In this document: positions 1-20,051 of the stretch, piece by piece
Position numbering within the stretch: position 1 is the stretch's first letter
How the letters are laid out: each line of letters opens with the position of its first letter
IMG/VR virus record: IMGVR_UViG_3300010151_000277
Location: 1 to 20,051 of that record
DNA: 20,051 bases
Reading direction: 5' to 3' (one strand)
Source of the DNA: a virus
The notes under the pieces: generated by a model
Told to the model about the DNA's origin: nothing
The model's database searches: none
Seen by the model: only the letters and a program-made list of their open reading frames with translations
Translations under genes and position numbers: made by a program

Positions 1-149
1 ATTGGCAATGTAGCAGGTCCTAAGCGGACTCTCAATAGAAACGTCACCATACCATAACGTATAGAATATTCGCTAAATCTATTGGCCTACGTGGCTACCA
101 ATACCCCGTGCCACACGTGAATTTTGTATCATTTTAAACCACACGAAGA

Positions 150-174
150 AGAGAGAGCCGTATAGGCCCTCTCT
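150..174 (-). terminator. Weak hairpin downstream of the minus-strand gene
   Basis: Positions 150-159 and 165-174 form a 10-bp stem with one mismatch around a 5-base loop (GTATA). The hairpin lies 26 bases beyond the stop codon of the minus-strand gene that ends at 201, where a transcription terminator is expected. After the stem the minus strand reads TCTTCG, not a clean T-run, so intrinsic termination would be weak. The stem is nearly symmetric and could instead act on + strand transcripts from the left. Confidence 0.35.
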
Positions 175-200
175 ACTGAGAGTGTAACTTGCATAAGCTA

Positions 201-614
201 CTACAAGGTGAATGAGGCAGTCTTTCTTGGCTTATATACCTTGTAGTTGATGAAGGTGATAGGTGAATCGTCAGACTTACTCTTCGTATGTCTGTAGATA
301 CGACCGTCTTTGTCTGCTGTAGCAGACCAAGTGGTGTTACCTGTAACCCATTTGGGAGTAACTAAGGTTACCTTGTCGCCTTTATTAGCGTCAGCAACAC
401 TCTTAGCCATTTTGGTAAGTGTGTTGGTAGTAACTTTTGCAAGTTTAGCTATTGCAGAGGCATCTGTAAGATGACCTTCAAGTACAAGGGTAACTTGGTT
501 GTTAGCAACAACTGGCTGATTAGAAGAGTCCTTCTTATCAGTCCATTGACCTTGGAATTGAACTCGTGCAATTGCGTTACGAACAGATTGAATGATTAAT
601 TTAAATGCAGACAT
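201..614 (-). CDS. Hypothetical protein, 137 aa, only minus-strand gene
   Basis: I do not recognise this protein. It is small and lysine- and threonine-rich, with no signal peptide or membrane segment. The N-terminal third (residues 1-50) alternates hydrophobic and polar residues like beta strands. Residues 50-75 look helical (Ala/Lys-rich), and the C-terminal half again looks like beta strands with charged loops, ending in a basic stretch (KPRKTASFTL). The start is well supported: on the minus strand AAAGGAGA sits 6 bases before the ATG. Its upstream side faces the structured non-coding region before the terminase genes, so it is transcribed divergently from the structural operon. That position would suit an early, regulatory or DNA-binding protein, but this is only context. 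Its codon use is somewhat less AT-rich than that of the structural genes. Confidence 0.8.
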   Translation of the reverse strand: MSAFKLIIQSVRNAIARVQFQGQWTDKKDSSNQPVVANNQVTLVLEGHLTDASAIAKLAKVTTNTLTKMAKSVADANKGDKVTLVTPKWVTGNTTWSATADKDGRIYRHTKSKSDDSPITFINYKVYKPRKTASFTL

Positions 615-702
615 AGTATGTCTCCTTTACTTTAAGATTGAGTCTCGTTGTAGTAAATACCGTATGTATTTGCTTTGTCACACCGAGACCAAGATGTGAG
701 TG

Positions 703-724
703 CACTTTGTATACATACAAAGTG
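703..724. repeat. Perfect 9-bp inverted repeat, 4-base loop
   Basis: CACTTTGTA (703-711) and TACAAAGTG (716-724) are exact reverse complements separated by TACA. No T-run follows on either strand, which argues against an intrinsic terminator. The length and symmetry fit an operator for a dimeric repressor placed upstream of the minus-strand gene (its ATG ends at 614), or a processing hairpin next to the folded element that starts at 737. Function is inferred only from shape and place. Confidence 0.55.
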
Positions 725-736
725 AACAGGGGTAGA

Positions 737-841
737 ATTGCCCGAGCGTAGCGAGAGTCACCCGACAATAGGTGGAGCTGGGGATGAACTTCAACGAAGT
801 TTAGACCCCCACACCGTAAAATTGGCGGGGGACGGGGCAAT
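737..841. ncRNA. Candidate structured RNA or DNA element (unassigned)
   Basis: ATTGCCC (737-743) pairs exactly with GGGCAAT (835-841) and would close a domain of about 105 bases. Inside it, CACC (759-762) can pair with GGTG (771-774). TGGGG (779-783) can pair with CCCCA (807-811), stacking over AACTTC/GAAGTT (787-792 with 796-801) and a 3-base loop. The segment is visibly richer in G and C than its surroundings, as expected for selected structure in an AT-rich genome. No strand is favoured because the stems lack wobble pairs that would discriminate. It does not match tRNA, tmRNA or any riboswitch I can recognise. Alternatives are a packaging (pac/cos) recognition site acting as DNA, or chance pairing. 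Confidence 0.4.
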
Positions 842-866
842 GTATATCTCATACTCCCATTCTGCG

Positions 867-955
867 TATATTTTTTCAACTTGCCCACTAAAGCCTATAT
901 TTGCCCACTTAAAGTATTACTTTATACCTCTCCTATATTTTTTAGTATATTTTTT
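867..955. repeat. Direct repeats: TTGCCCACT pair and TATATTTTTT triplet
   Basis: TTGCCCACT occurs at 881-889 and 901-909, a 20-base period or about two DNA helical turns. The second copy continues TAAAG where the first continues AAAG. TATATTTTTT occurs at 867-876, 934-943 and 946-955. Same-face spacing of the first pair is typical of protein binding sites. The T-tracts could bend DNA or help melting. Confidence 0.5.
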
Positions 956-973
956 CGTATTTGCACTTGTTCA

Positions 974-1035
974 GTAACTACGTAACTACGTAACTTACGT
1001 TATGGGGGTAGGGGGGGAGCAATTTACGTTATAAC
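974..1035. repeat. Iteron-like GTAAC/TTACG repeats with G-runs
   Basis: GTAACTAC repeats at 974-981 and 982-989, followed by the variant GTAACTTAC at 990-998. TTACGTTAT then occurs at 995-1003 and again, as TTACGTTATAAC, at 1024-1035. Between them lie GGGGG (1004-1008) and GGGGGGG (1011-1017). A related GTAACGTAACGTAC run sits at 1101-1114, inside the likely terminase reading frame. Short tandem units immediately before the small terminase gene are a plausible binding array for the small terminase itself, by analogy with phages whose packaging site lies in or near that gene. Confidence 0.45.
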
Positions 1036-1144
1036 AATACAACATAGAGATATAGGTAAAACAGACTATACGATACTTAGTAAAGCTGAAGCAGACTTAG
1101 GTAACGTAACGTACCTAGACTGGAGAGTAGCCCAGCCAGGTGAT

Positions 1145-1780
1145 ATGGCTTTAAGTGATGATAACTACATAGGCCAAGTAATCTCTAGAAAAGCTTATAT
1201 CGACCTTAATAATAGACAAAAAGATTACATAAGAGCTCCTTGGGGTTCTGTTTTTTACAAGCTAGGTAGTAAAACCAAGTTTAATGTAAAGGGTCGTAAG
1301 ACTAATACTACATTATCTGGTAAGTCTGGTTCTGAGGTATTTTGCAATAGTAAGAGAGTAAAGCTATTAGCCAAGGTATATGCTCGTACAAGGAACAAAA
1401 GAGAAGCAATAGAGAGGATTTATGGAGAAGTCGATAAGAATAAAAGACTTAAGTTATCTGTTTCAATGGAATCTAAGTATTTCAAGAAGATGGTAAAAGA
1501 AGAAACAGATAAATTGCTTGATACACATGGTTTCACTGGAGACTATGTTATGGAGCTATTAAAAGAAGCTATAAACATCGCTAAGACTAAGAAAGACGTT
1601 GGTAATCTTATGAAAGCGGTGGATAATCTACAAGATTTACATGGAATGAAGGAAAAGAAGGTGCAAGTGGATACTCGTCAGATAGAGGTTACATCAACTA
1701 AGACCCTTATAGACGCAATAGCAGAGCAAGAGAATAAGTTGGTTGCTACTGAGACTACTACTAAAGAGGTAGATGAGTAA
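1145..1780 (+). CDS. terS: Putative terminase small subunit
   Basis: The protein (211 aa from this ATG) is assigned mainly by position: it precedes and overlaps the large terminase gene by 8 bases (ATGAGTAA). In the packaging motor the small subunit recognises phage DNA and hands it to the large subunit. The first 60 or so residues look like a compact beta domain rich in Trp, Tyr and Gly. Residues 75-105 are basic and helical, a possible DNA-binding segment, and 110-190 are strongly helical, suited to ring assembly. The tail is Thr/Glu-rich. The start is doubtful. The same frame stays open upstream to 986 and encodes convincing protein from about residue -30 (TDYTILSKAEADLGNV, then TYLDWRVAQPGD) without any ATG, GTG or TTG. 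The only signal before 1145 is AGGTGA, placed very close. The true protein is probably 30-45 residues longer. Confidence 0.75.
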   Translation: MALSDDNYIGQVISRKAYIDLNNRQKDYIRAPWGSVFYKLGSKTKFNVKGRKTNTTLSGKSGSEVFCNSKRVKLLAKVYARTRNKREAIERIYGEVDKNKRLKLSVSMESKYFKKMVKEETDKLLDTHGFTGDYVMELLKEAINIAKTKKDVGNLMKAVDNLQDLHGMKEKKVQVDTRQIEVTSTKTLIDAIAEQENKLVATETTTKEVDE

Positions 1781-3266
1781 CTTTGAGGCTGATTATGCCA
1801 AACAAAAGGCATTAGAGAAGCTATATCATAATATGGCGTTGTTTGGGAAGATATGTTTCCCAACGGCAATCCGCTCTAGCACACCTCCGTTTCACCATGA
1901 GCTCTACAAAGCTCTACAGAATAGGGGAAAGAGACGAGTACTGGCTGCAGCACCGCGTGGAACGGCAAAGTCTACTGTTTTCAGTCTCATCTTTCCAATG
2001 CATCAAATAGCATTTAAAAAAAGTAATGAGGAAGTATTCATTGTTATTATATCAGAAAGTCAAACTCAGAGTATCAACTTTCTTAGTCGGATTAAGTACC
2101 ATCTTACCCATACTAAGGGGTTTAGTGATGTGTTTGGCGACCTTGGTCCAAATACTGCTAGTAGGTGGACTAATACTGATATTATACTCGCCAATAACGC
2201 TAGGATTGTTGCTGTTGGTACTGGGCAGCGTGTTAGGGGTTTCATTACGGGTGATACTAGACCAACAGCTATCATCATTGATGACTTTGAATCAGAACTT
2301 AATGCAGCGACTTCAGAAGCACGGGCAAAAAATCGTAAGTGGATTACAGAAGCTGTTATTCCGTCATTAGCCGATGGTGGAAGAATATTAATGGTTGGTA
2401 CAGTTATATCAGAAGATTGTTTCCTATACTGGGCAAAAGATTCCCCCACATGGACAGTATTGTGGACAGCTATTACAAATGATGATGGTTCTCCTGTATG
2501 GCCAGAAAGATTCCCTGCTGATAGAATAAAAGAAATACGACAGGAATATGAGAGTGTGGGTAATATTACTGGTTTTTATCAGGAATATATGAATATAGCT
2601 CAAGCTCCTGACGATGCTCCTTTTAAAGATAAATGGTTAAAGCTACATCACTATGATTTTGAACGTATAGAGGGACAAAATTGCCTAGTAAGAGAAATTG
2701 GAGAAGAAAAGAAGGTTATACCCGTAGATTTATATACTGGGGTTGACCCTGCTAGTTCATTAAACCCTAGGGCTGATTTCTTCGTTATAGCTACTATTGG
2801 TAAGGATAATGATGATAATGTTTACATAGTAGACTTATTTAGGGCACATTTAAACCCCTCAGAACAGCCAGATAAGATTATAGAGATATTCAAGAAGTTT
2901 AGACCCAGAAAGATGAAGATTGAGACTGTAGCATACCAAGAAGCACTAAGACAATCAGTTAGAAAGCGTATGCTAGAAGAAAACCTTTATATACCCGGTT
3001 TAGAGAAAGGATATAAGCCGCGTACTCGTAAAAGCGAACGGCTAATATCTATGGTTCCTGTATTCGCTAAGGGTAGGTTTTTCTTTAGACCACAAGACGA
3101 TATAGCTCAAGCAGAGTTCTTAAGCTACCCTAGGGGTAAGCATGATGATATTATGGATGCTATTTGGATGGCGTTAGACAATGCAAAGCCTTGTAGGTTG
3201 AAATCAGTTGGAAAGCAAGAGAAAACAAACAAAAAGAAAAAGTTACTTGATTGGTTGACTATTTAA
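1773..3266 (+). CDS. terL: Terminase large subunit (packaging ATPase-nuclease)
   Basis: This is the motor that pumps DNA into the prohead and cuts the concatemer. At 497 aa it has the usual length. The N-terminal ATPase domain shows a phage-type Walker A (PRGTAKST, residues 61-68), an adenine/coupling region with RGFITGDTRPT (155-165), a Walker B (IIIDDFE, 167-173) and a motif III-like LMVGT (206-210). The C-terminal RNase H-like nuclease shows the expected acidic residues: D325 in YTGVDPASS, E384 in MKIETVAYQEALRQ, and the D458/D459/D462 cluster in HDDIMDAIW. A lysine-rich tail ends the protein. All key residues appear present, so it should be active. It is translationally coupled to the small subunit gene by an 8-base overlap and followed 16 bases later by the portal gene. 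The family assignment is secure; the packaging type (cos or headful) cannot be read from the sequence alone. Confidence 0.95.
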   Translation: MSNFEADYAKQKALEKLYHNMALFGKICFPTAIRSSTPPFHHELYKALQNRGKRRVLAAAPRGTAKSTVFSLIFPMHQIAFKKSNEEVFIVIISESQTQSINFLSRIKYHLTHTKGFSDVFGDLGPNTASRWTNTDIILANNARIVAVGTGQRVRGFITGDTRPTAIIIDDFESELNAATSEARAKNRKWITEAVIPSLADGGRILMVGTVISEDCFLYWAKDSPTWTVLWTAITNDDGSPVWPERFPADRIKEIRQEYESVGNITGFYQEYMNIAQAPDDAPFKDKWLKLHHYDFERIEGQNCLVREIGEEKKVIPVDLYTGVDPASSLNPRADFFVIATIGKDNDDNVYIVDLFRAHLNPSEQPDKIIEIFKKFRPRKMKIETVAYQEALRQSVRKRMLEENLYIPGLEKGYKPRTRKSERLISMVPVFAKGRFFFRPQDDIAQAEFLSYPRGKHDDIMDAIWMALDNAKPCRLKSVGKQEKTNKKKKLLDWLTI

Positions 3267-3282
3267 GTGAGAGATTACGCCC

Positions 3283-5388
3283 ATGGCATACGGCACTAAA
3301 GTAGGCTCTAAAGAGTCTGTAGTTGATGAAACACAACGTTTGTGGCGCTCTTATTCTAATAATCGCTCAACTTGGGCTGAACACGCGGTCGAAGATAGAG
3401 AATTTAGATTAGGAAAGCAATGGACTCAAGAGCAGATTGATACTCTAAAAGCTAGAGGTCAAGCTCCTGCTGTGGTTAATCGCATACATCCAGCCGTAGA
3501 AGCTGCGAAAGCAATGCTTACATCTCATAAACCTTCGTTTAGAGTATCTGGAAGAGAGGATTCCGATAATAAGGTAGCACAGGTATTCAATGCTCTATTA
3601 GAGTATATGTGGCAGATTTCTGATGGTGATATGCAACTTAGAACAGCTGTAGATGATTATTATGTTACCGGTTTAGGTTGTTTGCTATTATATCAAGACC
3701 CAACTAAAGATATGGGTAAGGGTGAGGTAATGCTCCGGGCTATTGACCCAATGGACGTATATGTTGACCCCAACGCTAGGGATAGGTTCTTTGATGATGC
3801 AGAGAATATTATAGTTTCTAGGCTTTTCACTAAAGACCAAGCTAAGAAGCTATATCCGATGTATGATAATGCTATTCAAAATGCTGGTAACAATAGTTTT
3901 ACAGATACACCCAACACAAGTAGAGCCGACGATGGAGAAGTTAGTTTCCCTGAAGATATATTAACTCAAGAAGACGAATATATCAGGGGATACGAAAGAT
4001 ATTATAAAGTATTAGTTAGCAAGTATAGAATCTTTGAGCAGTTTTCAGGTCAAGAACATTTACTTGAAAGAGAAGAGTTCGAAGGCTATATATCTCAACC
4101 GGCGTGGTTTTACAAAGACCAACCTATAATAGATGAGCAAGTAGCTACTCAATTACAACAGCAAGGTCAGACTGTAATGCCTATGACTTTTAATGACCTA
4201 ATTGAGATGGGTTTAATAAAAGTAGTCAATGTTCAGGTGACTAGAGTTAAACAATGCGTAGTTATGGGTGATAAAAAGCTTTATTCACGCATATTACCTA
4301 CTGAAGAGTACCCTGTTATTCCTTTATGTAACCTACATACAAGAACTCCTTATCCAATGAGTGATGTTCGTATGGTCAAGAATATACAAGAGTATATTAA
4401 TAAAACTAGAAGCTTAATAATAGCTCATGCTACTACTAGTACTTCCGGTAAGGTATTAATACCCGAAGGTAGTGTTGATATGAAAGAATTTGAAGAGAAG
4501 TGGGCTCAACCTGGGGTTGCTATCCCAATTGATTTTTCTGAAGGTCAACCAGTTGCAATGCCTCCTACTCAACTTAGTAATGAACTATACAAGAACGAAG
4601 CTGATGCTAAGAATGATATAGACCATCAATTAGGGTTATACGCTCTTATGATGGGAGATAGTGGAAGTGCTCCTCAGACATATAAAGCTACTGTAAGTAT
4701 AGATGAGTTTGGACAAAGGAAAATGAAGTCAAAGCAGATGGATATAGAGGCAGGTTTGACTAGAGCAGCTAAGATAGCTATTCCTTTAATGCAACAACTA
4801 TTTCAACAAGAAAAGTTAATTCGTATAGTTCAACCAAATAACTCTTTGAGTGAATACGTAATTAATAAGAAGTTAGTAGACGATAAAACTGGCGAAATAG
4901 CCATTTTTAATGATATAACAATCGGTAAGTATGATGTTATTGCCGTTTCTGGTTCAACAATGCCAACTAATAGGTATGCACAACTTGAGTTGTACATGGA
5001 TGCTTATAAGAATGGCATAATCGACAGAAATGAGGTCTTGAAAAAGACAGAAGTCTTCGATATGGAAGGTGTTCTTGAAAGAACTGATACGATTACCCAA
5101 CTGCAAGGTCAGTTGCAGCAATCACAGGAACAAATCAAGAAACTTTCAGGAGACTTACAGACTCGTGATAGAGAGGCAGTTAATCTTCGGAAGAAGGTTG
5201 AAACCGAGAAGTTCAAAGGTAAATTGGATAAGATTGGAAATAAATCTTCTGCAGCCTCAACCTTGTTCGAGAAAAGGCTTGATGATATGTTAAGTATGGT
5301 CAAAGACGAAGTCAAGCGAGAAATAAAAGATAAAATGAAAGATGATACTCCTAAAAAGGACTCATCTAAGAAAAAGGATAAAAAATAA
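3283..5388 (+). CDS. Portal protein, P22-type
   Basis: This 701-aa protein should form the dodecameric ring at one head vertex through which DNA passes. It belongs with the long P22-like portals: an N-terminal segment WRSYSNNRSTWAEHAVED followed by FRLGKQWTQEQI, then VVNRIHPAVEAAKAML (from about residue 64) and PSFRV, a wing/stem core, and a C-terminal coiled coil (about 604-655, Gln/Lys/Glu-rich) comparable to the P22 barrel. It ends in a very lysine-rich tail. The position between terminase and scaffold is the canonical one. The Shine-Dalgarno sequence is weak (GAGAG, 13 bases before ATG). The start is kept because it is the first ATG after the terminase stop and gives the expected N-terminus. 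The stop overlaps the next start as TAATG. The family is clear from sequence pattern and context. Confidence 0.93.
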   Translation: MAYGTKVGSKESVVDETQRLWRSYSNNRSTWAEHAVEDREFRLGKQWTQEQIDTLKARGQAPAVVNRIHPAVEAAKAMLTSHKPSFRVSGREDSDNKVAQVFNALLEYMWQISDGDMQLRTAVDDYYVTGLGCLLLYQDPTKDMGKGEVMLRAIDPMDVYVDPNARDRFFDDAENIIVSRLFTKDQAKKLYPMYDNAIQNAGNNSFTDTPNTSRADDGEVSFPEDILTQEDEYIRGYERYYKVLVSKYRIFEQFSGQEHLLEREEFEGYISQPAWFYKDQPIIDEQVATQLQQQGQTVMPMTFNDLIEMGLIKVVNVQVTRVKQCVVMGDKKLYSRILPTEEYPVIPLCNLHTRTPYPMSDVRMVKNIQEYINKTRSLIIAHATTSTSGKVLIPEGSVDMKEFEEKWAQPGVAIPIDFSEGQPVAMPPTQLSNELYKNEADAKNDIDHQLGLYALMMGDSGSAPQTYKATVSIDEFGQRKMKSKQMDIEAGLTRAAKIAIPLMQQLFQQEKLIRIVQPNNSLSEYVINKKLVDDKTGEIAIFNDITIGKYDVIAVSGSTMPTNRYAQLELYMDAYKNGIIDRNEVLKKTEVFDMEGVLERTDTITQLQGQLQQSQEQIKKLSGDLQTRDREAVNLRKKVETEKFKGKLDKIGNKSSAASTLFEKRLDDMLSMVKDEVKREIKDKMKDDTPKKDSSKKKDKK

Positions 5389-6296
5389 TGGAAGTAGAAC
5401 AACAACAAGCGGTACAAGAGACACCCCAAGTTGAAGAATCAACTGGGCCTTCTTCGTTTGAAGAAATATTCCAGAATATGGGCGAAGGAACACCAGCAGA
5501 AGCTGGACAACAAGCTCAGGCTCCACAAGAAGGTCAACCTTCTACACCTGTGGAAACCCCTACTCAACAACCTGTAAATAACGACGAAAGACGTTTTCAG
5601 TACTGGCAGTCAGAAGCTGACAAGAGGCAGAATATGATTGATTCACAGCAAAAGCAAATTGAAATGTTGCAACAACAACAACAACAACAACCAACTGCTC
5701 CTGCTAATCAGCCAGCACCACAGGAAGAAAAGTTCCCAGAACCTCCTCAAAGACCAATCCCTCCTGCGGGATTTAGCAGGGAAGATGCGATGTCGGACCC
5801 AAGTGGGTTGTCAGCGCAATATCAAAATCAGGTCGAGCAATGGCGAGATAATATGGACGAATATAATTACTTGCATTCTCAATATAACGCAGCTAAGACT
5901 AATGAAAGATTCGATGCTATTCAAAAAGAACAGCAAAAAACACTTCAAAAGCAAGCAGCTGAACAGCAATGGTATGAACAACAGAACCAAGCTACTGAAT
6001 ATTTAAAAGGTACGTTTGGAGCGACTCCAGAGCAGGCTCAAGAATTTGTGCAACGTTATAGTGACCCTAAATCAGTTACAATGGATAATTTGTGGAAATT
6101 GTATCAGTTAGAATCAGGACAAGGACAAGTACCCAATAACGGGCCATCCCCTGCATTTCAACAGACTCAGAATGCACAACAAGTTCCATCTCCTATGGGA
6201 GTAGTAACTGGAGCAGGTCAGGGACAGCAAGGAAGTATTGAAGACCAAATGATGAACGCCATGGTTAACGACCATAATAAAACAAATTATTTTTAA
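5388..6296 (+). CDS. Putative capsid scaffolding protein
   Basis: The 302-aa protein lies between portal and capsid genes, where phages encode the scaffold that templates the prohead. The sequence agrees: residues 1-60 are acidic and Gln/Pro-rich, 65-105 form a Gln-rich helix with a run of Gln from an exact (CAA)7 repeat, 106-150 are Pro-rich, 150-205 are helical and charged, and the C-terminus is Gly/Gln-rich and likely disordered. No enzymatic motif is visible, and in particular no Ser protease pattern that would make it a maturation protease. It starts in a TAATG overlap with the portal gene, which couples their translation. The role is inferred from place and composition; low-complexity sequence makes any family assignment unreliable. 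Confidence 0.75.
   Translation: MEVEQQQAVQETPQVEESTGPSSFEEIFQNMGEGTPAEAGQQAQAPQEGQPSTPVETPTQQPVNNDERRFQYWQSEADKRQNMIDSQQKQIEMLQQQQQQQPTAPANQPAPQEEKFPEPPQRPIPPAGFSREDAMSDPSGLSAQYQNQVEQWRDNMDEYNYLHSQYNAAKTNERFDAIQKEQQKTLQKQAAEQQWYEQQNQATEYLKGTFGATPEQAQEFVQRYSDPKSVTMDNLWKLYQLESGQGQVPNNGPSPAFQQTQNAQQVPSPMGVVTGAGQGQQGSIEDQMMNAMVNDHNKTNYF
5670..5690 (+). repeat. (CAA)7 microsatellite in the scaffold gene
   Basis: Seven exact CAA triplets encode consecutive Gln residues near position 95 of the scaffold-like protein. Such a tract can change length by replication slippage without breaking the frame. Confidence 0.8.
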
Positions 6297-6316
6297 ACTT
6301 GGAGGTTTAATATAAA

Positions 6317-7729
6317 ATGGCAAACGCGAATTTTTTAAGCACAACACCGGGCACAACAGCTGCATTAGGGGGAATTTCTTCCCTTGATTCAACAAGACGC
6401 CTGTATAACTTTGGAGACAGAGTAGCATCTCTAGCTCCAGAACAAACACCTTGGTTTGTCTATCTTTCAAAGGTAGCAAAGCAAGCAACAGATGACCCAA
6501 CTTTCAAATTCATGGAACAACGTCATCAATGGCAAAGACGTAACTTTGATGTAGCTACTACAGTTTCTTCAGGAGTAGCAGCAGATGGTACAGTTGCGGA
6601 TTTTGAAATTGACGTAGATTGCAAATATGACAAATATGGTAACGCTGTAGATACACCTGTAGCTCCAGAGTTTTTAGTAGTAAACCAAATGGTTGCTATT
6701 AAATGCCAATATGACTCTGCAGGAGATGGAGATAATGCAAATGACTCTCCTATTGTAGGACATTTCAGAGTTGCTAGTATAGCTACTGGTACTACAGCAG
6801 TTGCAAAGCCAACATTAAAGTTTATTTCAGCAACTAAAGCTAGCGGTAAAGAGCAAGTTTTAGTTGATAATTCAAAGCTTTTATTGGTAGCAACAGAGTG
6901 TCCAGGTGAAGTTATTGGTTCAGCATTCCAAGAAGGAACTAGCTTCCCAAAGGGCTGGGCAGATGAGCTTTATGCACGTGAAGGTCACTGTCAAATATTC
7001 AAAACTGCTTCTCCAGTTATGTCTGGTACAGCACAAGCGACTCGTTACAGAGGTGTAGCTAACGAATGGCAACGTGTTTGGAAAGAAAAGCTGATGGAAC
7101 ATAAAATGGATATTGAGAGAGGTATGCTTTTTGGTATAGGTGGTGCTCAAAATGCTGATTATAGAACATCTTGGGGTATTGTACCTTATACTGAGCGTTA
7201 TGGTAAAGTATATAATTACTCTATGTCAGGAACAGCTCCGACTGGCCATAAAGAAAACTATGATGGATTATTAGAGATTATGGAAGACTTCTATGCTCCT
7301 GAATCAGGTAATAGTGGTAATAAACTATGTCTTGCTTCAAGAAGTGTTATAAGTTACTTCAATAAAATGGCTTCTGGCTTTGTAAATAGCACAATAGGTG
7401 CAGGTAACCAGCCATTTACTGTTGATGTGAATTATAAAGATGGTAAGTTTGGCCATAAAGTAGCTCAAGTTGATACTGTATTTGGTGGGTTTACAATGGT
7501 TCAAGAGCCATTATTTAGAGGCCCTTATGCTGATATGATGGTATTAATTGATATGGATAACGTTAAATATAGACCACTAGTTGGTAATGGTATTTCTCGT
7601 GATACATATATTGAGACTAATGTTCAATCACCTGGTGATGATGCAAGAGTAGACCAAATCTTAACAGAGGCTGGTCTGCAAGTTGAATTACCTGAAACTC
7701 ACGCTATTATTAAATTTGCTGACAATTAA
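6317..7729 (+). CDS. Major capsid protein
   Basis: This 470-aa protein follows the scaffold and has the strongest ribosome binding site nearby (GGAGG, 11 bases before ATG), as expected for the most abundant virion protein. The N-terminal part contains a pattern RRLYNFGDRVASLAP (27-41), then TPWFVYLSKVA and TFKFMEQR. This resembles, from memory, capsid proteins of the phage SU10 group, which have an HK97-type fold. An extra loop rich in Val, Ala and Thr (about 85-180) may be a surface insertion. A basic helical segment (WQRVWKEKLMEHKMDIERGML, split here by coupling residues) precedes the compact C-terminal domain. No prohead protease gene is visible and the N-terminus lacks a long delta domain. 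Capsid identity is well supported by order, length and signal; the exact family is an inference. Confidence 0.88.
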   Translation: MANANFLSTTPGTTAALGGISSLDSTRRLYNFGDRVASLAPEQTPWFVYLSKVAKQATDDPTFKFMEQRHQWQRRNFDVATTVSSGVAADGTVADFEIDVDCKYDKYGNAVDTPVAPEFLVVNQMVAIKCQYDSAGDGDNANDSPIVGHFRVASIATGTTAVAKPTLKFISATKASGKEQVLVDNSKLLLVATECPGEVIGSAFQEGTSFPKGWADELYAREGHCQIFKTASPVMSGTAQATRYRGVANEWQRVWKEKLMEHKMDIERGMLFGIGGAQNADYRTSWGIVPYTERYGKVYNYSMSGTAPTGHKENYDGLLEIMEDFYAPESGNSGNKLCLASRSVISYFNKMASGFVNSTIGAGNQPFTVDVNYKDGKFGHKVAQVDTVFGGFTMVQEPLFRGPYADMMVLIDMDNVKYRPLVGNGISRDTYIETNVQSPGDDARVDQILTEAGLQVELPETHAIIKFADN

Positions 7730-10838: not shown

Positions 10839-10849
10839 GGAGAGAAACA

Positions 10850-12571
10850 ATGGCAGGATGGAGAAAAGTATTAGTAAGTAACACAAAAGGAACAGCTGGA
10901 GTTGATTTAGAAAACCTAGGTCATATAGTTCCAGATGATTTAGCTATAAATGAAGATGGTAGTTTTTTATCGGGGGTAGCTAGCCAAGCTTTATCTATTA
11001 ATGATAGTGGAAACGGCCTTGAATGGAAAGATGTAACAACTACATTTGCTTCTTTAACTGATTCTGATACTACAAGCACTGGATTAGCTGATAATGACAT
11101 AATGGTCTATGATACTCAAGATAGTAAATATAAGATGATGCCTATGGTAGGAGATGTGAAAGTAGCAGTTACAGGCTCAGGAGCTAGTACAGTAGCTACT
11201 ATGAGTATTCAACCTGATTCCGTAGCTCTTGGTACTGACACTACAGGTAATTATGTTTTAAAAGGTGAAACTACAGGTAATGGTATTTCAGGCTCTATTA
11301 ATGCCGAAGGAGGTACTTTTACAGTTACTTCTAATGCAGTTTCTACTGCTACTGCAAATACTCTTGTATATAGAGATGCAAGTGGAGATTTTATTGCAAA
11401 TGAAATAACTGCTAGTTTAGACGGTACTGCTGCTATAGCTACAGCTGTAAACCTTTCTGGTGCGACTGGGCAAGGTAATAATGATAAACTTGTTTTTGCT
11501 GCTAATGGGACCGCGACGGGTACAGCTACTTTAGAAACTGATGTTGCATTACATTATAACCCTAATACCCAATTATTCACTGCCCCTAATTTTGCAGGAG
11601 ATATAAATGGTACAATTGGTGCCACTGCTCCTACTTCTGGTGCGTTTACAAATTTAACTAGCTCTGGTAATACTAGTTTAACCACAGCTAATATCACTGG
11701 CAACTTATCACATACTGGTGGTACAGCTACTCTTGCAGGTGGGTCTCTTGTAGTAAGTAATGAAATTGCTAATGCAGTCATTAATACTTTTATTTTAAAC
11801 AACTCACAAACTGGAACTTGGCCTTTAGCTGACCCTGCACCTACTGCCCAAATCAGTTTTGATATTTTACAATCATCACAAATCACTGCTACAGATATAG
11901 ATGATGATGATTTTATATGGGTTAAGGCTCAAAATTATGATGAAAGCAATGAAGCAATTTCAGGAAGTTATTCTTATGTTAAATTACGAGCTACTGATGA
12001 TTATGATATGGTAGCTACTGTGGGAACTAATCTGACGACAACATGGGATGTTATTGATTGGCCTGATGGAGCAAAAATTATAAAAGGTCCTGTGTCTATA
12101 GCTTATTCAAGTGAACCAACGGGTACACAAACTATAACAATGGATGATACTGTTATATTTACAGGTGGTGGAACTTTTGCATCTACTTCTAATTTTGCTA
12201 CAACAGATAATCTAATTCATTTAAATGTATTAGCAGATAATAGTGCATACGGAGGTGACCTTTCCTCTGGTATTGTATTTGGAACAACTGCAGCTGATGA
12301 GGGTGAAAGTGCGACAGCATACAAAACTGGTGGTAAATTAATACATACTGATACTGAATTTATTTTTGGAACATTTGCAGATGTAGTTAGCTCTACTCCG
12401 GCTAATCAAGATAATCTAACTACTACTAATTTAAAAGATATACGAGTTAAAGCTATTCAATTTGATACCAGTGATACTATTGATGAGACTGGTAATAGTT
12501 ATGCTAATGGTGATAATCCTTATTTAGGAGTAAATGATTCTGGCGTTCTATATTTTTATATGGCTGAATAA
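10850..12571 (+). CDS. Putative tail fibre protein 1
   Basis: This 573-aa protein is Thr-, Ala-, Gly- and Asp-rich with strand repeats typical of trimeric fibres. Recognisable fibre phrases are NTLVYRDASGDFIANEITA (about 168-187), followed by SLDGTAA, and IGATAPTSGAFTNLTSSGN (about 256-274). A third is DNLIHLNVLADNSAYGGDLS in the last third, which resembles decoration segments of cyanophage-like fibres. The N-terminus MAGWRKVLVSN matches in style the N-terminus of the second large fibre (MSWKKILLENN at 12988), so both probably dock on the same site. The start has a strong ribosome binding site (AAGGAGAG). No peptidase or depolymerase active site is evident. Function as a receptor-binding or side fibre is inferred from composition and repeats. 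Confidence 0.75.
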   Translation: MAGWRKVLVSNTKGTAGVDLENLGHIVPDDLAINEDGSFLSGVASQALSINDSGNGLEWKDVTTTFASLTDSDTTSTGLADNDIMVYDTQDSKYKMMPMVGDVKVAVTGSGASTVATMSIQPDSVALGTDTTGNYVLKGETTGNGISGSINAEGGTFTVTSNAVSTATANTLVYRDASGDFIANEITASLDGTAAIATAVNLSGATGQGNNDKLVFAANGTATGTATLETDVALHYNPNTQLFTAPNFAGDINGTIGATAPTSGAFTNLTSSGNTSLTTANITGNLSHTGGTATLAGGSLVVSNEIANAVINTFILNNSQTGTWPLADPAPTAQISFDILQSSQITATDIDDDDFIWVKAQNYDESNEAISGSYSYVKLRATDDYDMVATVGTNLTTTWDVIDWPDGAKIIKGPVSIAYSSEPTGTQTITMDDTVIFTGGGTFASTSNFATTDNLIHLNVLADNSAYGGDLSSGIVFGTTAADEGESATAYKTGGKLIHTDTEFIFGTFADVVSSTPANQDNLTTTNLKDIRVKAIQFDTSDTIDETGNSYANGDNPYLGVNDSGVLYFYMAE

Positions 12572-12594
12572 TAAATTTCATTAAACGAGGTTAG

Positions 12595-12959: not shown

Positions 12960-12987
12960 AATCAACTAACATTAAGAGTAATATCTA

Positions 12988-15321
12988 ATGTCTTGGAAAA
13001 AGATATTACTTGAGAATAACATTTCAGCGTCAGATATTACGACTGTAGGAAACCCTGAATCAGCTGGCAGTGTATTTTTACGAAATGATTCTAATACTTT
13101 AAGATGGGCGACTACAAACGCATCTGGCGATGCTTCCTTTCAACGCATAGCTATTATAGATGGCTCTAAAGATGAATCAGTCGATAGTACTTTCCCTTTT
13201 CACTATATTACTAGACAAGAATTACATGATGGTTATATAAGTTCAAGTAATGCTCATTATGTTGATAGTAACTCTGGTGGTGATACTACTCTTTGGGATA
13301 ACACTACTACGGGTGGTAATAAAATTAGCACTTTCATTACTAACTACTTATCTGACCCTGATTGGGCTTCGCCACCAGATGAATACGAAGATGCAGACCA
13401 ATTTCAAGAGGTGCATAAGGACGACCTTGTAATTCTTCCCTTAGGATTATGGTCGGATGAAGATACTAATGCATTAACAACGGGCGCTGGTTTATACTCA
13501 AAGCCTAATATAAATCCAGAAAATGATGAATGTATTGCACATTGGACTCTTGGAACTTCTTCTCCGTATAAAGGTTGTTTTTTAATTACACAAGTTGCTA
13601 GTAATGGACGTGCGTATATGATACGTACTAACAATGCAATATCAGAGCCTTCAGGTGAAAGTAGTAGGGATAGTAGACAAGTACAATATGATTCAGCGAT
13701 TGAAGACATTTTTGATGGGGGGATTCTATATAGAGCTAAAGGGGAGTGGATAGAAAATATTGGAGCAATATCTATAGATTCTGCTGATGATAATATTACT
13801 GTAGATATTACAAATGGGGATACTCTTATAGACAACGAGACTTCTTCTACTAATGTATCTGTATTTGATGTTAAATTAGCAGATGATTTATCAATTACAT
13901 CATTAACTACTAGTGGTAAAGTAATAACTGATGAATTAATTCCTGCTACTGCAGATGAAACTATAAAAATATCTATTAATGGTACTAGTACTACTGCTTT
14001 AAAAATTCCTTCTACTAAAACTTTAAATTTTATGCACTCCGGTAGTAATATCCCAACATTATCAGGACAAACTGGGTTATTAACTTCTAGCCAAGAATTG
14101 ACAGCTCCTTTACTTTCTAGTGATGTTTTTAATATAAATACATTAGATAGTACAAAAACTTCTTCTAATTGGGATGATATATATACTACTGTAGGAGATG
14201 CTCGAGGTATAATATTAAAAGGTGAGGAAGGTGAAACGCTTAGTAATTTACCAGTTGGGAAACTTGCTTATCGTGGTAGTGATGGGGAGTGGGACAAAAC
14301 AGGTGCTGATGTATATCCTGAATTAGGTATATGTGTCGCTAATGAAGACGCAGGGCGTGTAGACATACTGACTCAAGGATTTGTTCGAATAGCTAGTGGT
14401 AATTTATGGGGAACTGCTAGTACTGAATATTCTCCTGGAGATGCTGTATATGCTCACACAGGTATATCTAACGGACAAATAAGTTTAGCTAAATATAATG
14501 CTGGCGGAGTGGGGAAATCTACACCAATAGGAACTATAATTGGGTTTGAAACAAGTGCTTCTCATACAACAGGTGCTTCAGGTGGTGCAACTGATGATGT
14601 ATTAATTTATTTTAACCCTATTAATGTTTGGTATGAATATAATACATCAGGTACTCTTACAAAGATTGATGGTGTCTCTTTAGGAGGTACTGATACTGTA
14701 GATATGGGTGATGGTTTTACTGTAACTGCTACTACAGCGGGTACAAATTCAACCATTACAGAAAGTGATACATTAACAATTGCAGCTGCTGGTTTAATAA
14801 CTACAACGGCTACAAGTGACGGAGTAATCACGATAGGAACTACTGCTACAGCAGACCAAACAGGCGAACAAATAAAAACCGCTTATGAAGCAGAGGATGA
14901 TACAAATGCTTTTACTGATGCTAATGTAATTACGCTTGGCAATGCTATAACAAGCACTTTAACAGCAGATTTAAATGCTGGAGCTAACCAAATAGGCTTT
15001 ACTGAAAATGAAGTAAGTAATGCTGCTAGTATGACAGTAGATTGGGGTATAGGGAATAAAGCTTCTGTTATATTAAGTCAAGTTGGGCATACCATTGCAA
15101 TGACAAATCCTGCAACTGCATGTAATTTATTATTAAAAATAACACAGGGGGACCCTGGTAGTGATACAATTACTACATGGACTCCAAGCGCAGGCAACAT
15201 TTACTGGGCAGGAGGTGGTGATGAACCTACATTATCTACATCTGCTAGTGCTATAGATATAATTACTTTTTATTTTGATGGTACTAATTATTATGGTGCT
15301 GCAAGTTTGGACTTTAGCTAA
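12988..15321 (+). CDS. Putative tail fibre protein 2, large
   Basis: This is the largest gene in the window (777 aa). It begins with MSWKKILLENN, like the first fibre protein. Residues 60-250 form a Trp/Asp-rich domain with no recognised family. Residues 250-400 are strand repeats rich in Thr and Ser. About 400-550 resembles a small beta-barrel of the DUF2190 type (GIILKGEEGETLSNLPVGKL, later VDILTQGFVRIAS and YSPGDAVYAH). About 684-777 is a conserved-type fibre end domain: DWGIGNKASVIL, LLLKITQGDPGS, WTPSAGNIYWAGG, PTLSTSASAIDIITFYFDG and NYYGAASLDF. The last domain is common at C-termini of phage fibres and other virion surface proteins, which supports receptor binding. The ribosome binding site is weak (AAGAG), so translation may depend on the upstream small genes. 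The stop overlaps the next start as TAATG. Confidence 0.78.
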   Translation: MSWKKILLENNISASDITTVGNPESAGSVFLRNDSNTLRWATTNASGDASFQRIAIIDGSKDESVDSTFPFHYITRQELHDGYISSSNAHYVDSNSGGDTTLWDNTTTGGNKISTFITNYLSDPDWASPPDEYEDADQFQEVHKDDLVILPLGLWSDEDTNALTTGAGLYSKPNINPENDECIAHWTLGTSSPYKGCFLITQVASNGRAYMIRTNNAISEPSGESSRDSRQVQYDSAIEDIFDGGILYRAKGEWIENIGAISIDSADDNITVDITNGDTLIDNETSSTNVSVFDVKLADDLSITSLTTSGKVITDELIPATADETIKISINGTSTTALKIPSTKTLNFMHSGSNIPTLSGQTGLLTSSQELTAPLLSSDVFNINTLDSTKTSSNWDDIYTTVGDARGIILKGEEGETLSNLPVGKLAYRGSDGEWDKTGADVYPELGICVANEDAGRVDILTQGFVRIASGNLWGTASTEYSPGDAVYAHTGISNGQISLAKYNAGGVGKSTPIGTIIGFETSASHTTGASGGATDDVLIYFNPINVWYEYNTSGTLTKIDGVSLGGTDTVDMGDGFTVTATTAGTNSTITESDTLTIAAAGLITTTATSDGVITIGTTATADQTGEQIKTAYEAEDDTNAFTDANVITLGNAITSTLTADLNAGANQIGFTENEVSNAASMTVDWGIGNKASVILSQVGHTIAMTNPATACNLLLKITQGDPGSDTITTWTPSAGNIYWAGGGDEPTLSTSASAIDIITFYFDGTNYYGAASLDFS

Positions 15322-15872
15322 TGCCTACTTTTGATTTACTTCCTGATGGACAAACAACACAGGAATGGGCGAAGGGTACTTCCTCTAATACCTCTTCAGA
15401 TGGGACATACGCAGAAGTTGTAGATGCTACAGACGGTACTTATTTAAAAGAAGTATCTCGTAGGCATAAGATGGTTTTTACTACAGCAAATCCTACTATT
15501 TCTTCAAGTGATATTCAGTCTATTGATTCAGTTAAGCTTGAAGCTGATTTAAAATATACTAAAAATAGTTCTTTTGATATTGATATTGATATACGACAAG
15601 ATGTTTCAGGAAGTGGGAATGGGCTTGATTTCAAGAATGTTATAGGTTCTGGCCCCTCTGGCGGCTATACTACATTTACAGGTACAGAAGAGACTACAAA
15701 TCCTTCTGGTAATTCATGGACATTGACAGATTTAGATAATTTAAGTATTATAGTTGAATTAACTGAAGCCCCAGCTATTTTAGGGAGAGTAGAAATACGG
15801 TACTTTAAGGCTATTGTTTCTTATACGGCGGCTATAAAAGATAATGCAGTATTTTTTGGAACAAATTTTTAA
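15321..15872 (+). CDS. Putative jelly-roll fibre-associated protein
   Basis: The 183-aa protein is beta-rich with almost no cysteine. It has the pattern of lectin-like or carbohydrate-binding jelly rolls that accompany phage fibres: an early Trp segment (GQTTQEWAKGTSS), YAEVVDATDGTYLKE, an alternating strand core (SVKLEADLKYTKNSSFDIDI) and the WTLTDLDNLSIIVELTEAP segment, ending in VEIRYFKAIVSYTA. No catalytic residues are apparent. It begins in a TAATG overlap with the large fibre gene and has only a weak ribosome binding site, so it is probably made in step with the fibre and may cap or decorate it. The fold is inferred from strand pattern, not from a database match. Confidence 0.65.
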   Translation: MPTFDLLPDGQTTQEWAKGTSSNTSSDGTYAEVVDATDGTYLKEVSRRHKMVFTTANPTISSSDIQSIDSVKLEADLKYTKNSSFDIDIDIRQDVSGSGNGLDFKNVIGSGPSGGYTTFTGTEETTNPSGNSWTLTDLDNLSIIVELTEAPAILGRVEIRYFKAIVSYTAAIKDNAVFFGTNF

Positions 15873-15882
15873 AGGAGAGTAG

Positions 15883-16284
15883 ATGCCAAAATTCGGAAGT
15901 AAATCAACAGAGAATCTTTTAACTTGTCATACTAAGCTAATAGAGGTATTTAATGAGGTTATTAAACACGTGGATTGCTCAGTACTCCAAGGGCACAGAG
16001 GGGAAGAAGAGCAAAATAAATATTTTAACGAAGGAAAGTCTAAAGTTCCGTATCCTAAAGGTCGCCATAATAGTGTTCCTAGTCGTGCAGTCGATGTTAC
16101 TCCTTATCCTGTTGATTGGGATGATAGAGAACGTCAAACATTATTTGCAGGTTTTGTTATTGGGATAGCATTAGCAAGGGGTATTAAATTACGTTGGGGT
16201 GGAGATTGGGATTCTGACTTTAAAGTTCAGGATAATAGATTTGATGATTTCCCTCATTTTGAATTAGTTAAAGGAGAAAAGTAA
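15883..16284 (+). CDS. Endolysin, M15-type peptidoglycan peptidase
   Basis: This 133-aa enzyme should cut peptide stems of peptidoglycan (D-Ala-D-Ala carboxypeptidase / L-Ala-D-Glu endopeptidase family M15) at the end of infection. Zinc ligands are visible: H62 and D71 (GRHNSVPSRAVDV, the family's HxxG..AxD block with a changed middle), and H125 in DDFPHFEL, where D122 is the likely catalytic acid. R39 (QGHRGEEEQ) fits the conserved Arg, and LRWGGDWD is the usual motif before the last ligand. There is no signal peptide or cell-wall binding domain, so it needs a holin to reach the wall. The start has a strong ribosome binding site (AAAGGAGAG). The small size is typical of phages of Gram-negative hosts. 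It heads the lysis cluster. Confidence 0.88.
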   Translation: MPKFGSKSTENLLTCHTKLIEVFNEVIKHVDCSVLQGHRGEEEQNKYFNEGKSKVPYPKGRHNSVPSRAVDVTPYPVDWDDRERQTLFAGFVIGIALARGIKLRWGGDWDSDFKVQDNRFDDFPHFELVKGEK

Positions 16285-16476
16285 GTGCTTGCACAATTAG
16301 AAGATACATTAAGGCAATATCCGTTAATAGGGGCAGGTTCATCACTTACTCCTGTGTTTGGTTGGCTTGAGATAGTTAATCCGGTACTGGCTGTCCTGGG
16401 TTCGTTTCTTGGTATAGCCATAGGGATATATACTTTAAAAATAAAGATAATCGAATATAAGGAAAAGAAAGAATAG
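16285..16476 (+). CDS. Small membrane protein, holin candidate 1
   Basis: The 63-aa protein has one clear hydrophobic segment (about residues 28-50, WLEIVNPVLAVLGSFLGIAI) and a basic C-terminal tail (KIKIIEYKEKKE), giving a single-span membrane protein. The start is GTG at the base after the endolysin stop, with AAAGGAG upstream. Directly after a peptidase gene, such a protein is the first candidate for the holin that opens the inner membrane. An anchor for another lysis protein is possible. No family motif is recognised. Confidence 0.75.
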   Translation: MLAQLEDTLRQYPLIGAGSSLTPVFGWLEIVNPVLAVLGSFLGIAIGIYTLKIKIIEYKEKKE

Positions 16477-16821
16477 GTGATTATACCCTATACACAAGAT
16501 GCCCCTAAAGTTTTACAGATAGGCTTGTTTGTAAATAAGAATTTAAAGTATTCTCCTAAAGAATTACTATTACAAATAAAAGTAGTAGATTTTCGTCCTA
16601 ACGCACATAAACCGGCCAACTGTTATAATTGCGAATCTCCGATGATAGTTCCCCTTGAGGTATTAGATTTATCTTCTGAGGTTTTATTCTGGACTTGTAT
16701 GGAATGTGGGTTTAAAAGTCTAAAGACTGACTTTGAACATGTCTCAGCATTGATAGAAGAATCGCGTGATATATATGTGATTCCTGAACATTTCAACAAC
16801 AATAATCGAATTAAAGCATAG
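16477..16821 (+). CDS. Zinc-ribbon protein within the lysis cluster
   Basis: The 114-aa protein has two CxxC knuckles (C49-C52 and C74-C77) 21 residues apart, a classic zinc-ribbon spacing. Between them is a hydrophobic strand pair (MIVPLEVLDL, VLFWTCMECG). The N-terminal half has basic residues and two short helices, and the C-terminus is acidic. It starts with GTG immediately after the previous stop, with AAGGAAAAG upstream. Zinc ribbons in phages are often found in transcription or DNA-associated proteins, or in virion parts, but nothing here selects one. Its place among membrane and lysis genes is unusual. A role in late gene control or lysis timing is speculation. Confidence 0.75.
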   Translation: MIIPYTQDAPKVLQIGLFVNKNLKYSPKELLLQIKVVDFRPNAHKPANCYNCESPMIVPLEVLDLSSEVLFWTCMECGFKSLKTDFEHVSALIEESRDIYVIPEHFNNNNRIKA

Positions 16822-16829
16822 GAGTAATT

Positions 16830-17015
16830 ATGAATAACGAAACATTAATAATAGAGCCTCAAGATACAATAGACGAAGCAAAAGGGATATATGCAGAGGT
16901 TATAATTAAGCAATTAGAGTTAGGGATTCCAGCAAAAACGGCAATAGAGAACGCTGTTGATGCATCTCAAACATTCATAACTACTTTTCAGGTTTTAGAG
17001 GGATTTAATAATTAA
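16830..17015 (+). CDS. Small helical hypothetical protein, 61 aa
   Basis: An acidic protein made mostly of two helices (IDEAKGIYAEVIIKQLELG and AKTAIENAVDASQTFITTF) with a Gly-Ile-Pro turn. It has no membrane segment and no cysteines. AGGAG lies 7 bases before the ATG. The stop overlaps the next start by one base (TAATG). The family is not recognised. Its coupling to the following membrane protein gene suggests that they work together. Confidence 0.7.
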   Translation: MNNETLIIEPQDTIDEAKGIYAEVIIKQLELGIPAKTAIENAVDASQTFITTFQVLEGFNN

Positions 17016-17296
17016 TGGATTTAAATATCATAGATACTTATGGACTCCCTATTGCGGGAGTTATAGCACTAGCGGTTACCCTCTATAAGGCTGTAGAATT
17101 TATTCAAAAGCAACTTTTAAATCAGATTGAAGATAGGCATAGCGCTGAAATGGAAGCCATAAGACAACTAGAAGAAGAGCATAAAGTATTTCATTCAATA
17201 ATAGTTACTTTAATTAATAATTCTAAAAAGAATCAGTTAGTTTTAGAAGAGATTAAAGGAAGCCTATCTATGTTAGTTAATTTTTTAAACAAATAA
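17015..17296 (+). CDS. Membrane-anchored coiled-coil protein, holin/spanin-like candidate 2
   Basis: The 93-aa protein has one N-terminal membrane segment (about residues 9-29, YGLPIAGVIALAVTLYKAVE) followed by a charged coiled coil (about 32-65, QLLNQIEDRHSAEMEAIRQL and further Glu-rich heptads) and a short C-terminal helix. That layout suits an inner-membrane spanin (Rz-like) or a class of single-span holin. No lipoprotein partner is seen inside or beside it. It begins in a TAATG overlap and ends 9 bases before the next membrane protein gene. The lysis role is inferred from topology and neighbours. Confidence 0.7.
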   Translation: MDLNIIDTYGLPIAGVIALAVTLYKAVEFIQKQLLNQIEDRHSAEMEAIRQLEEEHKVFHSIIVTLINNSKKNQLVLEEIKGSLSMLVNFLNK

Positions 17297-17305
17297 AGGA
17301 GTATT

Positions 17306-17575
17306 ATGAACATACTTGGACTTATAACAAAAATAGCAGGTAAAAATAAATCTGTGGAAAAGGTTACCAATCTTTTTATTGGTGAAAATTCAAAGAAGAG
17401 AAATATAGGATTTGCAGGGTTTGCAGTATCTGCGCTTTTATTCCAAACGGGATATATTGATGCTGAATTATTTGATACTTTAATGTTACTATGTGCAGGT
17501 TGGACGGGAATAGCATTTAGTAGCAAATTAAGTAAACTTGGTGATGCATTGAAAGAGGCTAAGAAAAAGAAGTAA
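17306..17575 (+). CDS. Small membrane protein, holin candidate 3
   Basis: The 89-aa protein has a basic N-terminal helix (residues 1-32) and two closely spaced hydrophobic segments (about 34-46, GFAGFAVSALLFQ, and 56-71, FDTLMLLCAGWTGIAF). It ends in a very basic tail (LKEAKKKK). The two-span layout with a basic end is common for class II holins. AAGGAG precedes the ATG. This is the third membrane protein in the cluster; one may be the holin, another the antiholin or spanin. Alternatively it is an internal virion protein that enters the host membrane. Confidence 0.7.
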   Translation: MNILGLITKIAGKNKSVEKVTNLFIGENSKKRNIGFAGFAVSALLFQTGYIDAELFDTLMLLCAGWTGIAFSSKLSKLGDALKEAKKKK

Positions 17576-17576
17576 T

Positions 17577-18308
17577 ATGGCTCTTACAGAAGAAATGATT
17601 AGAGAGGCATGGAATAGCTTATCAGAAAGAGATAAGTTACACCGTTATGGGGGAGACTATAATAATCTTGTCTCTCAAATTAAAACACATCAGCAAAACT
17701 CGAAACTATATGGCTATGAAGACCCTTTTAAAGATATATCTCCTCCAACAAGAAATTATCAAGAAACTTCAGTTAATCCAAATGTTCCTGTTGATGACCC
17801 TAGTTATTCTGACTTTACTTATACCAAAGAGTATAACAATCCTAAACCTGCTGATTGGGAAAATTATAGTATAAAAAATAAGAAGCAATATATAAGGCAA
17901 TATGGAGACCCAGACAGGCCAACAATTGTAAGACGTAGGAATCAGACATTGCCTCCAACTGACGACCCTAATGTTATACAAAGTCTTGACGACCCTAGAT
18001 TAGTTGCATTACAAAAACGTTTTGATGAGCGAACTAAGCGTAATAAAAGCGGTTATGTTATGCCTAAGGAAGATATAGAAAATTTACGTAAAGAACAAGA
18101 ACGAGAAAGGTTGGCATTAGTTACTGGGGGTACGCCCAATCCTTTAGAAATTGCTATTATGAATGCTGGAGATAAATTTAAAAATTTAGGTAATGTTCCG
18201 AAAGATATTAGACGAAAATTAAATCGTTCAAAACTTGGGCAAATAGTAAACAAAAAACTTAAACAAGGTAAGAAAAAAGGAAAGGGGATTTTAGATTGGG
18301 TTTTTTAG
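17577..18308 (+). CDS. Hypothetical protein, 243 aa, Pro/Asp-rich with basic end
   Basis: I do not recognise it. The first 50 residues are helical and polar. Residues 50-150 are rich in Asp, Pro, Asn and Tyr with repeated DDP or DPN turns (VDDPSYSD, PPTDDPNV, LDDPRLV), likely extended. Residues 150-190 are a charged helix (LRKEQERERLALV), and the last 45 residues are strongly basic (RRKLNRSKLGQIVNKKLKQG, KKKGKG) and end in LDWVF. The ribosome binding site is poor. Basic tails with extended acidic parts are seen in internal virion proteins and in DNA-binding proteins. It overlaps the following gene by 13 bases. Confidence 0.65.
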   Translation: MALTEEMIREAWNSLSERDKLHRYGGDYNNLVSQIKTHQQNSKLYGYEDPFKDISPPTRNYQETSVNPNVPVDDPSYSDFTYTKEYNNPKPADWENYSIKNKKQYIRQYGDPDRPTIVRRRNQTLPPTDDPNVIQSLDDPRLVALQKRFDERTKRNKSGYVMPKEDIENLRKEQERERLALVTGGTPNPLEIAIMNAGDKFKNLGNVPKDIRRKLNRSKLGQIVNKKLKQGKKKGKGILDWVF

Positions 18309-18658
18309 ACTACATAAAAAACAATCCTTTATCTCAAGCAATGTCTGGAATTTCTAATTTGAAAGGTGATGGTCAATTTGTAGATTTTATTGAAAAAGAC
18401 CTTGGTTTAGGATGGGACCAATTAAACAAAAGAAATGCTTTAGGAATGATTGGGTCTGAAGATGCTAGTTGGCTTATGAATCAACCTAAAGATATGGCTT
18501 ATGAGGATAAAATTAATAGGTATATGGATATAACTTCTAAGTATAATCTTGTAGATGAAGACGCTAGGCCTGGTATGAGGCAAGGACTGATAGATATGGG
18601 TCAAGAATCGTTTCAAGACTCGTCACAACATTTTGGGAATGTATACAGAGGTCAGTAA
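18296..18658 (+). CDS. Hypothetical protein, 120 aa, TTG start
   Basis: The frame opens with TTG inside the end of the preceding gene (13-base overlap), with AAAGGGG 7 bases ahead. The start residue and following FLDYIKNNPLSQAMSGI are helical. The rest is polar with Gly, Met and Asp, for example FIEKDLGLGWDQLNKRN, then DKINRYMDITSKYNLVDED, and ends in QDSSQHFGNVYRGQ. There is no membrane segment or known motif. The next internal Met (residue 16) would remove the overlap but also the ribosome binding site. Its tight linkage to the genes on either side suggests a virion assembly role. Confidence 0.65.
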   Translation: MGFLDYIKNNPLSQAMSGISNLKGDGQFVDFIEKDLGLGWDQLNKRNALGMIGSEDASWLMNQPKDMAYEDKINRYMDITSKYNLVDEDARPGMRQGLIDMGQESFQDSSQHFGNVYRGQ

Positions 18659-20051
18659 TGCCTAAAGAATTATTTGAATTAAAGAATTTTCAAACAGGGA
18701 TAATAAGTTCTCCTTCGACTACTGACGTTCCAGAAGAAGCGGCTGTATTTTCTAAGAATATAGACCCTTCTAGTGAAGCAGGAGTATTGAAGGGCATACC
18801 CGAAGACGATACCTTGGTATCCGGTATTAACAGTACTTCAGCTCAGATAATAGAAAATGACTTAATACATTATAATCCAGATACTAAAACAATGATAAGA
18901 ACAGAGGGATTCAATCTTGAGACCCAAACTGAAGAAGCACCTACAAATATATTATATATTGGCGATTGGGATGGTGATACAATATTAACTGATGAATCTA
19001 TAGATGGTATTACTACTGATGCTAATCAAACATTAGAAATAACAGATGCTTATGATAGAAAAAATGTCTTAAAATGGAGTAATTCTAGCACTACAGGTCA
19101 TAGTAAGGTATTAATGTTTAATACTAATCAGCAGTGGGTGGTTGGTGAAATGTTACAAGTTAGTTTTGACTATTACATACCCTCTTTAAGAACAGACGAA
19201 ACTACAGATTCGGATGTTGATAGAATAGTAGTATATTCAGGTTCTGGCCAAAAACACCAACATCTTAATGGGGGTATTTGGGACGATAAGGATGTTTGGG
19301 CTAATTATAATGTCAGAACTATAGTAACAGAGGCTAATGATGATAATTATCATCTCGCTATATATTTTCAAGGTTTTGAAGATAATGATGGAGATGATGA
19401 CGGTGTTAGTGTAGAAGATACTATTCCTGGAGGAAACCACGTATATATAGATAACCTAACAGTTGTTAAAAATCAATCTATTTCAACAATACTAGGTAAT
19501 TCAGTAACTTTCCCTAGCTTTGTTAAAAGAAATAATGAGTTGCTTTCTGGACATGGAAAAGAAGAATCTCCTAAGTTTACAAATGGGGAGTTTTTAGCTA
19601 TAAATGGTGAACTTACACGACCATTAGATGGGCAAACCGGGACATTCTTTGATTTTATATTAAACTATGATTCAACAGCTGGTACTGAAAAGTGGGTTGC
19701 GTTTAGACGTGGGGTAAAAAAAATATATACATTGTCAATGGTTGATGGCGAAATTTCTATATCAGAGAATCCACTACTTAGAGACAATATATTGGCGATT
19801 GGACTTAATTATGCTAAAGATTATCTATATATTGCGGAAAGAAGTGTAGATTATTCTAGTTATTTATGCGTTATATATAAAATTGAGATTTCAACTTTAG
19901 ATGGCGAAAGTGATATTTCTGGCACATCAATCTCAATACACTATAGCAATGACTTAGATAAACCTAATTTTGGTGTAGCATTAGAGGATATGATAATTTC
20001 TGATATTATAGAAACGAAAGTAGATGGTAATTCTACTGTTAATAATGGAGA
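18658..20051 (+). CDS. Large structural protein (partial), putative tail/stabilisation protein with binding-domain insert
   Basis: The gene starts at a TAATG overlap with AGAGG upstream and stays open to the right edge (464 codons, no stop), so it is truncated by the window. The N-terminus (ELKNFQTGIISSPSTTDVPE, then SKNIDPSSEAGVLKGIPEDD) resembles, in my judgement, phage tail-tube or head-stabilisation proteins, which open with a phrase about residues that set an N-terminal platform. Residues about 97-272 look like a carbohydrate-binding jelly roll: GDWDGD, a WVVGEMLQVSFDYYIP strand, YHLAIYFQGFEDNDGDDDG, and the closing VYIDNLTVVK. After that, repeated strands resume (FKRNNELLSGHGKEESPKFT region and LTRPLDG). 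The tail assignment is an inference from order and pattern; the insert suggests host or exopolymer binding. Confidence 0.7.
   Translation, partial: MPKELFELKNFQTGIISSPSTTDVPEEAAVFSKNIDPSSEAGVLKGIPEDDTLVSGINSTSAQIIENDLIHYNPDTKTMIRTEGFNLETQTEEAPTNILYIGDWDGDTILTDESIDGITTDANQTLEITDAYDRKNVLKWSNSSTTGHSKVLMFNTNQQWVVGEMLQVSFDYYIPSLRTDETTDSDVDRIVVYSGSGQKHQHLNGGIWDDKDVWANYNVRTIVTEANDDNYHLAIYFQGFEDNDGDDDGVSVEDTIPGGNHVYIDNLTVVKNQSISTILGNSVTFPSFVKRNNELLSGHGKEESPKFTNGEFLAINGELTRPLDGQTGTFFDFILNYDSTAGTEKWVAFRRGVKKIYTLSMVDGEISISENPLLRDNILAIGLNYAKDYLYIAERSVDYSSYLCVIYKIEISTLDGESDISGTSISIHYSNDLDKPNFGVALEDMIISDIIETKVDGNSTVNNG

Follow-up and report, generated by a model that had tools for sequence, protein, structure and literature searches.

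Loss of restriction sites from phage genomes is an old idea. In lytic phages, it was described as the total disappearance of short palindromic Type II sites from non-temperate dsDNA phages (Rusinov et al. 2018, PMC6286503); full site elimination was commoner in non-temperate phages, and of 46 phages with hosts encoding a GATC enzyme, every one was low in GATC. Marine pelagiphages depleted of GANTC similarly cluster on their tree by the density of this one methylatable motif (PMC9516812). The small ssDNA phage phiX174 was reported to be without any GATC, and this was tied to escape from mismatch repair (PMC5014478).

We analysed a stretch of viral DNA of 20,051 bases (the window), which is one complete IMG/VR record. 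The loss of GATC observed here is of this known kind but uncommonly strict, and it comes and goes from one related virus to another. Compared with the elimination in lytic phages cited above, it concerns one uncultured family, in which GATC content is bimodal and has switched repeatedly and CCGG is lost independently, and whose hosts and GATC enzyme are putative. The pelagiphage case involves another motif and another family; here the count is exactly zero in about half of the distinct relatives. The window shares the zero GATC of phiX174, where GATC alone is concerned, whereas the window's family also eliminates other palindromes.

The window encodes the structural half of a tailed phage, from terminase and portal through capsid and tail to an endolysin, with the following features:

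1 to 20051, no strand: whole window, IMG/VR record without GATC (0 observed, 56.1 expected)
1773 to 3266, + strand: terminase large subunit, the family-tree marker (PHROG 38, 3.9e-92; at least 597 relatives)
3283 to 5388, + strand: portal protein (PHROG 156, 7.3e-74)
6317 to 7729, + strand: major capsid protein (PHROG 1328, 3.7e-19)
10850 to 12571, + strand: tail protein (PHROG 356, 8.1e-13)
15883 to 16284, + strand: endolysin (PHROG 465, 1.4e-35)

The window is a piece of a virus from a large, uncultured and presumably bacteria-infecting family of marine tailed phages. No close isolate was found among 50,697 phage records, where the best terminase match was 27% identical and the portal, the capsid and the relatives' helicase gave only remote matches. 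Judging from the endolysin, the host is a bacterium. The only cellular contig with a relative of the family was one phage-like contig (L081) in a Euryarchaeota (archaeal) MAG. Its placement there is probably a binning error, and we rejected it as evidence of an archaeal host because the family carries endolysins.

The earlier note, made by eye, had reported no GATC in 20 kb where tens were expected, and the counts agreed. Under a maximal-order Markov model the zero count had a z of −9.0, the most extreme value of all tetramers in the window, and GATC was the sole palindrome absent. When the genes were shuffled synonymously 200 times with the proteins and the pooled codon usage fixed, 43.9 ± 4.6 GATC sites were obtained (minimum 31, z = −9.5); the second-lowest palindrome under this shuffling was AATT (z = −3.0). 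The avoidance runs through codon choice. Asp before a C-starting codon, which had been noticed to be written GAC, was GAC in 33 of 33 cases and never GAT, whereas elsewhere GAT was used for 359 of 432 Asp residues and GAC for 73. Likewise, Ser codons following NGA were AGY in all 11 cases and never TCN, and Ile codons following G were ATT or ATA in all 52 and never ATC.

The loss had also been described as specific to GATC. This stood in so far as no other palindrome is absent, but CATG (28 observed, 61.5 expected) and GTAC (53 observed, 80.5 expected) were also low by the Markov count. As these deficits became much weaker under codon shuffling (z = −1.4 and −2.0, respectively), they reflect codon and amino-acid usage for the most part, and GATC alone among the palindromes has truly been lost from the window. 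CCGG was retained (15 observed, 10.7 expected).

Next, we considered the distribution of GATC in the family. From at least 597 terminase relatives in viral contigs, 207 distinct ones were used for GATC ratios, and these were bimodal: 114 relatives had exactly zero and two had a single site, while nearly all of the remaining ones were at 0.2–0.9 of expectation. The GATC-bearing relatives had about 0.55 of the expected GATC. Over 14 related records pooled (520 kb) we observed none of 1430 expected sites, and whole or near-whole related records (∼50 kb) had zero against 120–170 expected. On the terminase tree the GATC state required about seven changes, compared with 67 when labels were shuffled. 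The window clusters with L001 and L002, and this small GATC-free group adjoins the GATC-bearing L140/L211 and the GATC-free L143/L198. In an unrelated marine family of the pelagiphage (HTVC010P) type, GATC was present at 2665 of 2749 expected, and none of 80 loci was at zero.

The outcome of the loss was visible at unchanged amino acids. From GATC-bearing to GATC-free relatives (G044 and G043 to G045; G048 and G047 to G046), all 76 GATC sites had been lost, while comparison tetramers were kept at 23–87%; between the two GATC-bearing records G044 and G043, 79% of GATC sites were kept. The relatives compared share 56–64% mean protein identity, and so the comparison shows the outcome of the loss and not its tempo.

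GATC is not the only motif eliminated in the family. We counted a tetramer as eliminated when it fell under one-tenth of its expected number. In records of at least 20 kb, this was so in 52 of 566 palindromic tests, as against 2 of 4440 non-palindromic ones. The palindromes concerned were CCGG, GATC, CGCG, GCGC, CTAG and ACGT, and the hexamers GAATTC and GATATC recurred among the eliminated motifs; all of these are classical Type II sites. The number of eliminated motifs per record varied from none to several. CCGG was likewise all-or-nothing, on a pattern different from that of GATC: one GATC-bearing clade had 1 CCGG where 125 were expected, and one GATC-free clade had 76 where 59 were expected.

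Some individual records showed further deficits. In the GATC-bearing pair L119 and L133 (records G034 and G033), CTAG was nearly absent (6 of 62 and 4 of 53 expected) and GCGC was absent (0 of 18 and 0 of 13). In L367–L369 (the GATC-bearing record G052), CCAGG stood at 0 of 42 and GGACC at 0 of 23, which suggests that this record lost CCWGG and GGWCC sites.

The loss is thus exact, structured within the family, specific to palindromes and reached through codon choice. It is probably best explained by lytic phages having been purged of their hosts' Type II restriction sites, a reading in which host, enzyme and lytic habit are inferred. The window's lineage would infect bacteria having a Type II endonuclease that cuts unmethylated GATC (DpnII/MboI/Sau3AI specificity). 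Each GATC site would carry a risk of cutting on entry, so that mutations removing it would be selected until none was left, mostly by synonymous codon choice, which is possible for every dipeptide; newly arising GATC would then be purged. In sister lineages infecting other hosts, the constraint may have been relaxed, or sites cut by different Type II enzymes lost instead (CCGG, GCGC, CGCG, CTAG, ACGT, GAATTC, GATATC). The earlier note had offered either a restriction enzyme or a Dam-linked system. Restriction is well supported by the confinement to palindromic Type II sites, the phylogenetic structure, the independent loss of CCGG, GCGC, CGCG, CTAG or ACGT, and the absence of elimination from the unrelated marine family; a Dam-linked system can explain GATC alone.

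The lytic life style, presumably that of most members, is suggested by the integrase searches: a phage integrase was found in 1 of the 34 records searched, some of which may be incomplete, the window being half a genome. This matches the published rule of fuller elimination in non-temperate phages (PMC6286503). The sole integrase (L092:16963-17658) lies in the GATC-bearing record G008.

Selection against GATC could also arise without a restriction enzyme. In hosts with Dam and MutH, mismatch repair nicks unmethylated GATC, the MutH site, in fast-replicating phage DNA, and such selection has been put forward for phages of enterobacteria, phiX174 among them. The reduced GATC of the GATC-bearing relatives would fit this explanation, as does the zero count of phiX174. 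We consider it unlikely here, since it cannot account for the loss of CCGG, GCGC, CGCG, CTAG or ACGT from relatives, which is just as strict; the window has lost no palindrome other than GATC, but its relatives have. Moreover, mismatch-repair avoidance in dsDNA phages is usually partial, and 0 of 1430 is stricter than that. An artefact, arising from sampling (for instance, library preparation with a GATC-cutting enzyme) or from plain compositional or codon bias, has a negligible chance of being the cause. All the records are metagenomic assemblies, but the same metagenomes yielded GATC-bearing relatives as well as unrelated phages with normal GATC (3300030372 gave both L014 with 31 GATC and L040 with none), which excludes library artefacts, and the composition-keeping codon shuffle still gave 44 GATC.

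If instead the phage encoded a GATC nuclease that degrades host DNA, its own genome would have to be GATC-free. Most fuller records of both GATC states have an HNH/endonuclease VII-like protein, and some GATC-free records also have a PD-(D/E)XK protein. This origin appears very improbable, since the GATC state was not matched by the presence of any gene family and the eliminated motifs vary from none to several between records. Homologues of Dam, DpnII and MutH/Sau3AI were found in none of 34 related records, a search that unrecognised families may escape. In the searches for these and for N6/N4 methylases, profiles PF04556, PF02976 and PF05869 had no match in 34 records and PF02086 none in 42; PF01555 gave nothing above cut-off in 40, with one weak sub-threshold match inside a 2997-residue frame. 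No gene was common to all GATC-free members and to no GATC-bearing one. The HNH gene occurred in 11 GATC-free and 12 GATC-bearing records, and none of its columns fully separated the two. Several core genes have protein columns that separate the GATC states, a pattern that can result from common descent. The gene with the most such columns, an AAA_24 ATPase of two types, was rejected as the determinant: G045 and G038 are GATC-free, yet have the type of the GATC-bearing records.

Returning to host restriction, in one marine MAG survey only 3.19% of Type II methyltransferases belonged to complete restriction systems (PMC9516812), and therefore there is no obvious reason to expect a universal GATC cutter. 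We tentatively raise the possibility that each member's motif pattern (GATC, CCGG, GCGC, CTAG and ACGT, each on or off) lets one read off which restriction enzymes its uncultured marine host has and that, complete Type II systems being apparently scarce in marine genomes, the GATC and CCGG cutters are enzymes which current searches do not recognise. The family supplies dozens of related genomes in which GATC is either entirely missing or just reduced, the state having switched repeatedly, and in which another site follows a pattern of its own. The strength and speed of marine restriction pressure become measurable without cultures, and a phage genome becomes usable for predicting the restriction enzymes of its host.

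Two other features of the relatives were observed. A protein of ∼3000 residues is common to most fuller records (L092:5818-15156, L103:8915-17725); as it had no Pfam match, we did not retain it as an antirestriction protein. An early operon encodes a ubiquitin-like protein with a conserved terminal NKSG motif, a Prok-JAB peptidase-like protein and a ThiF/E1-like protein (L094:507-4190 in record G020, and also in G027, G039 and G013). It is absent from G043 and G044, and is about equally common in GATC-free and GATC-bearing members.
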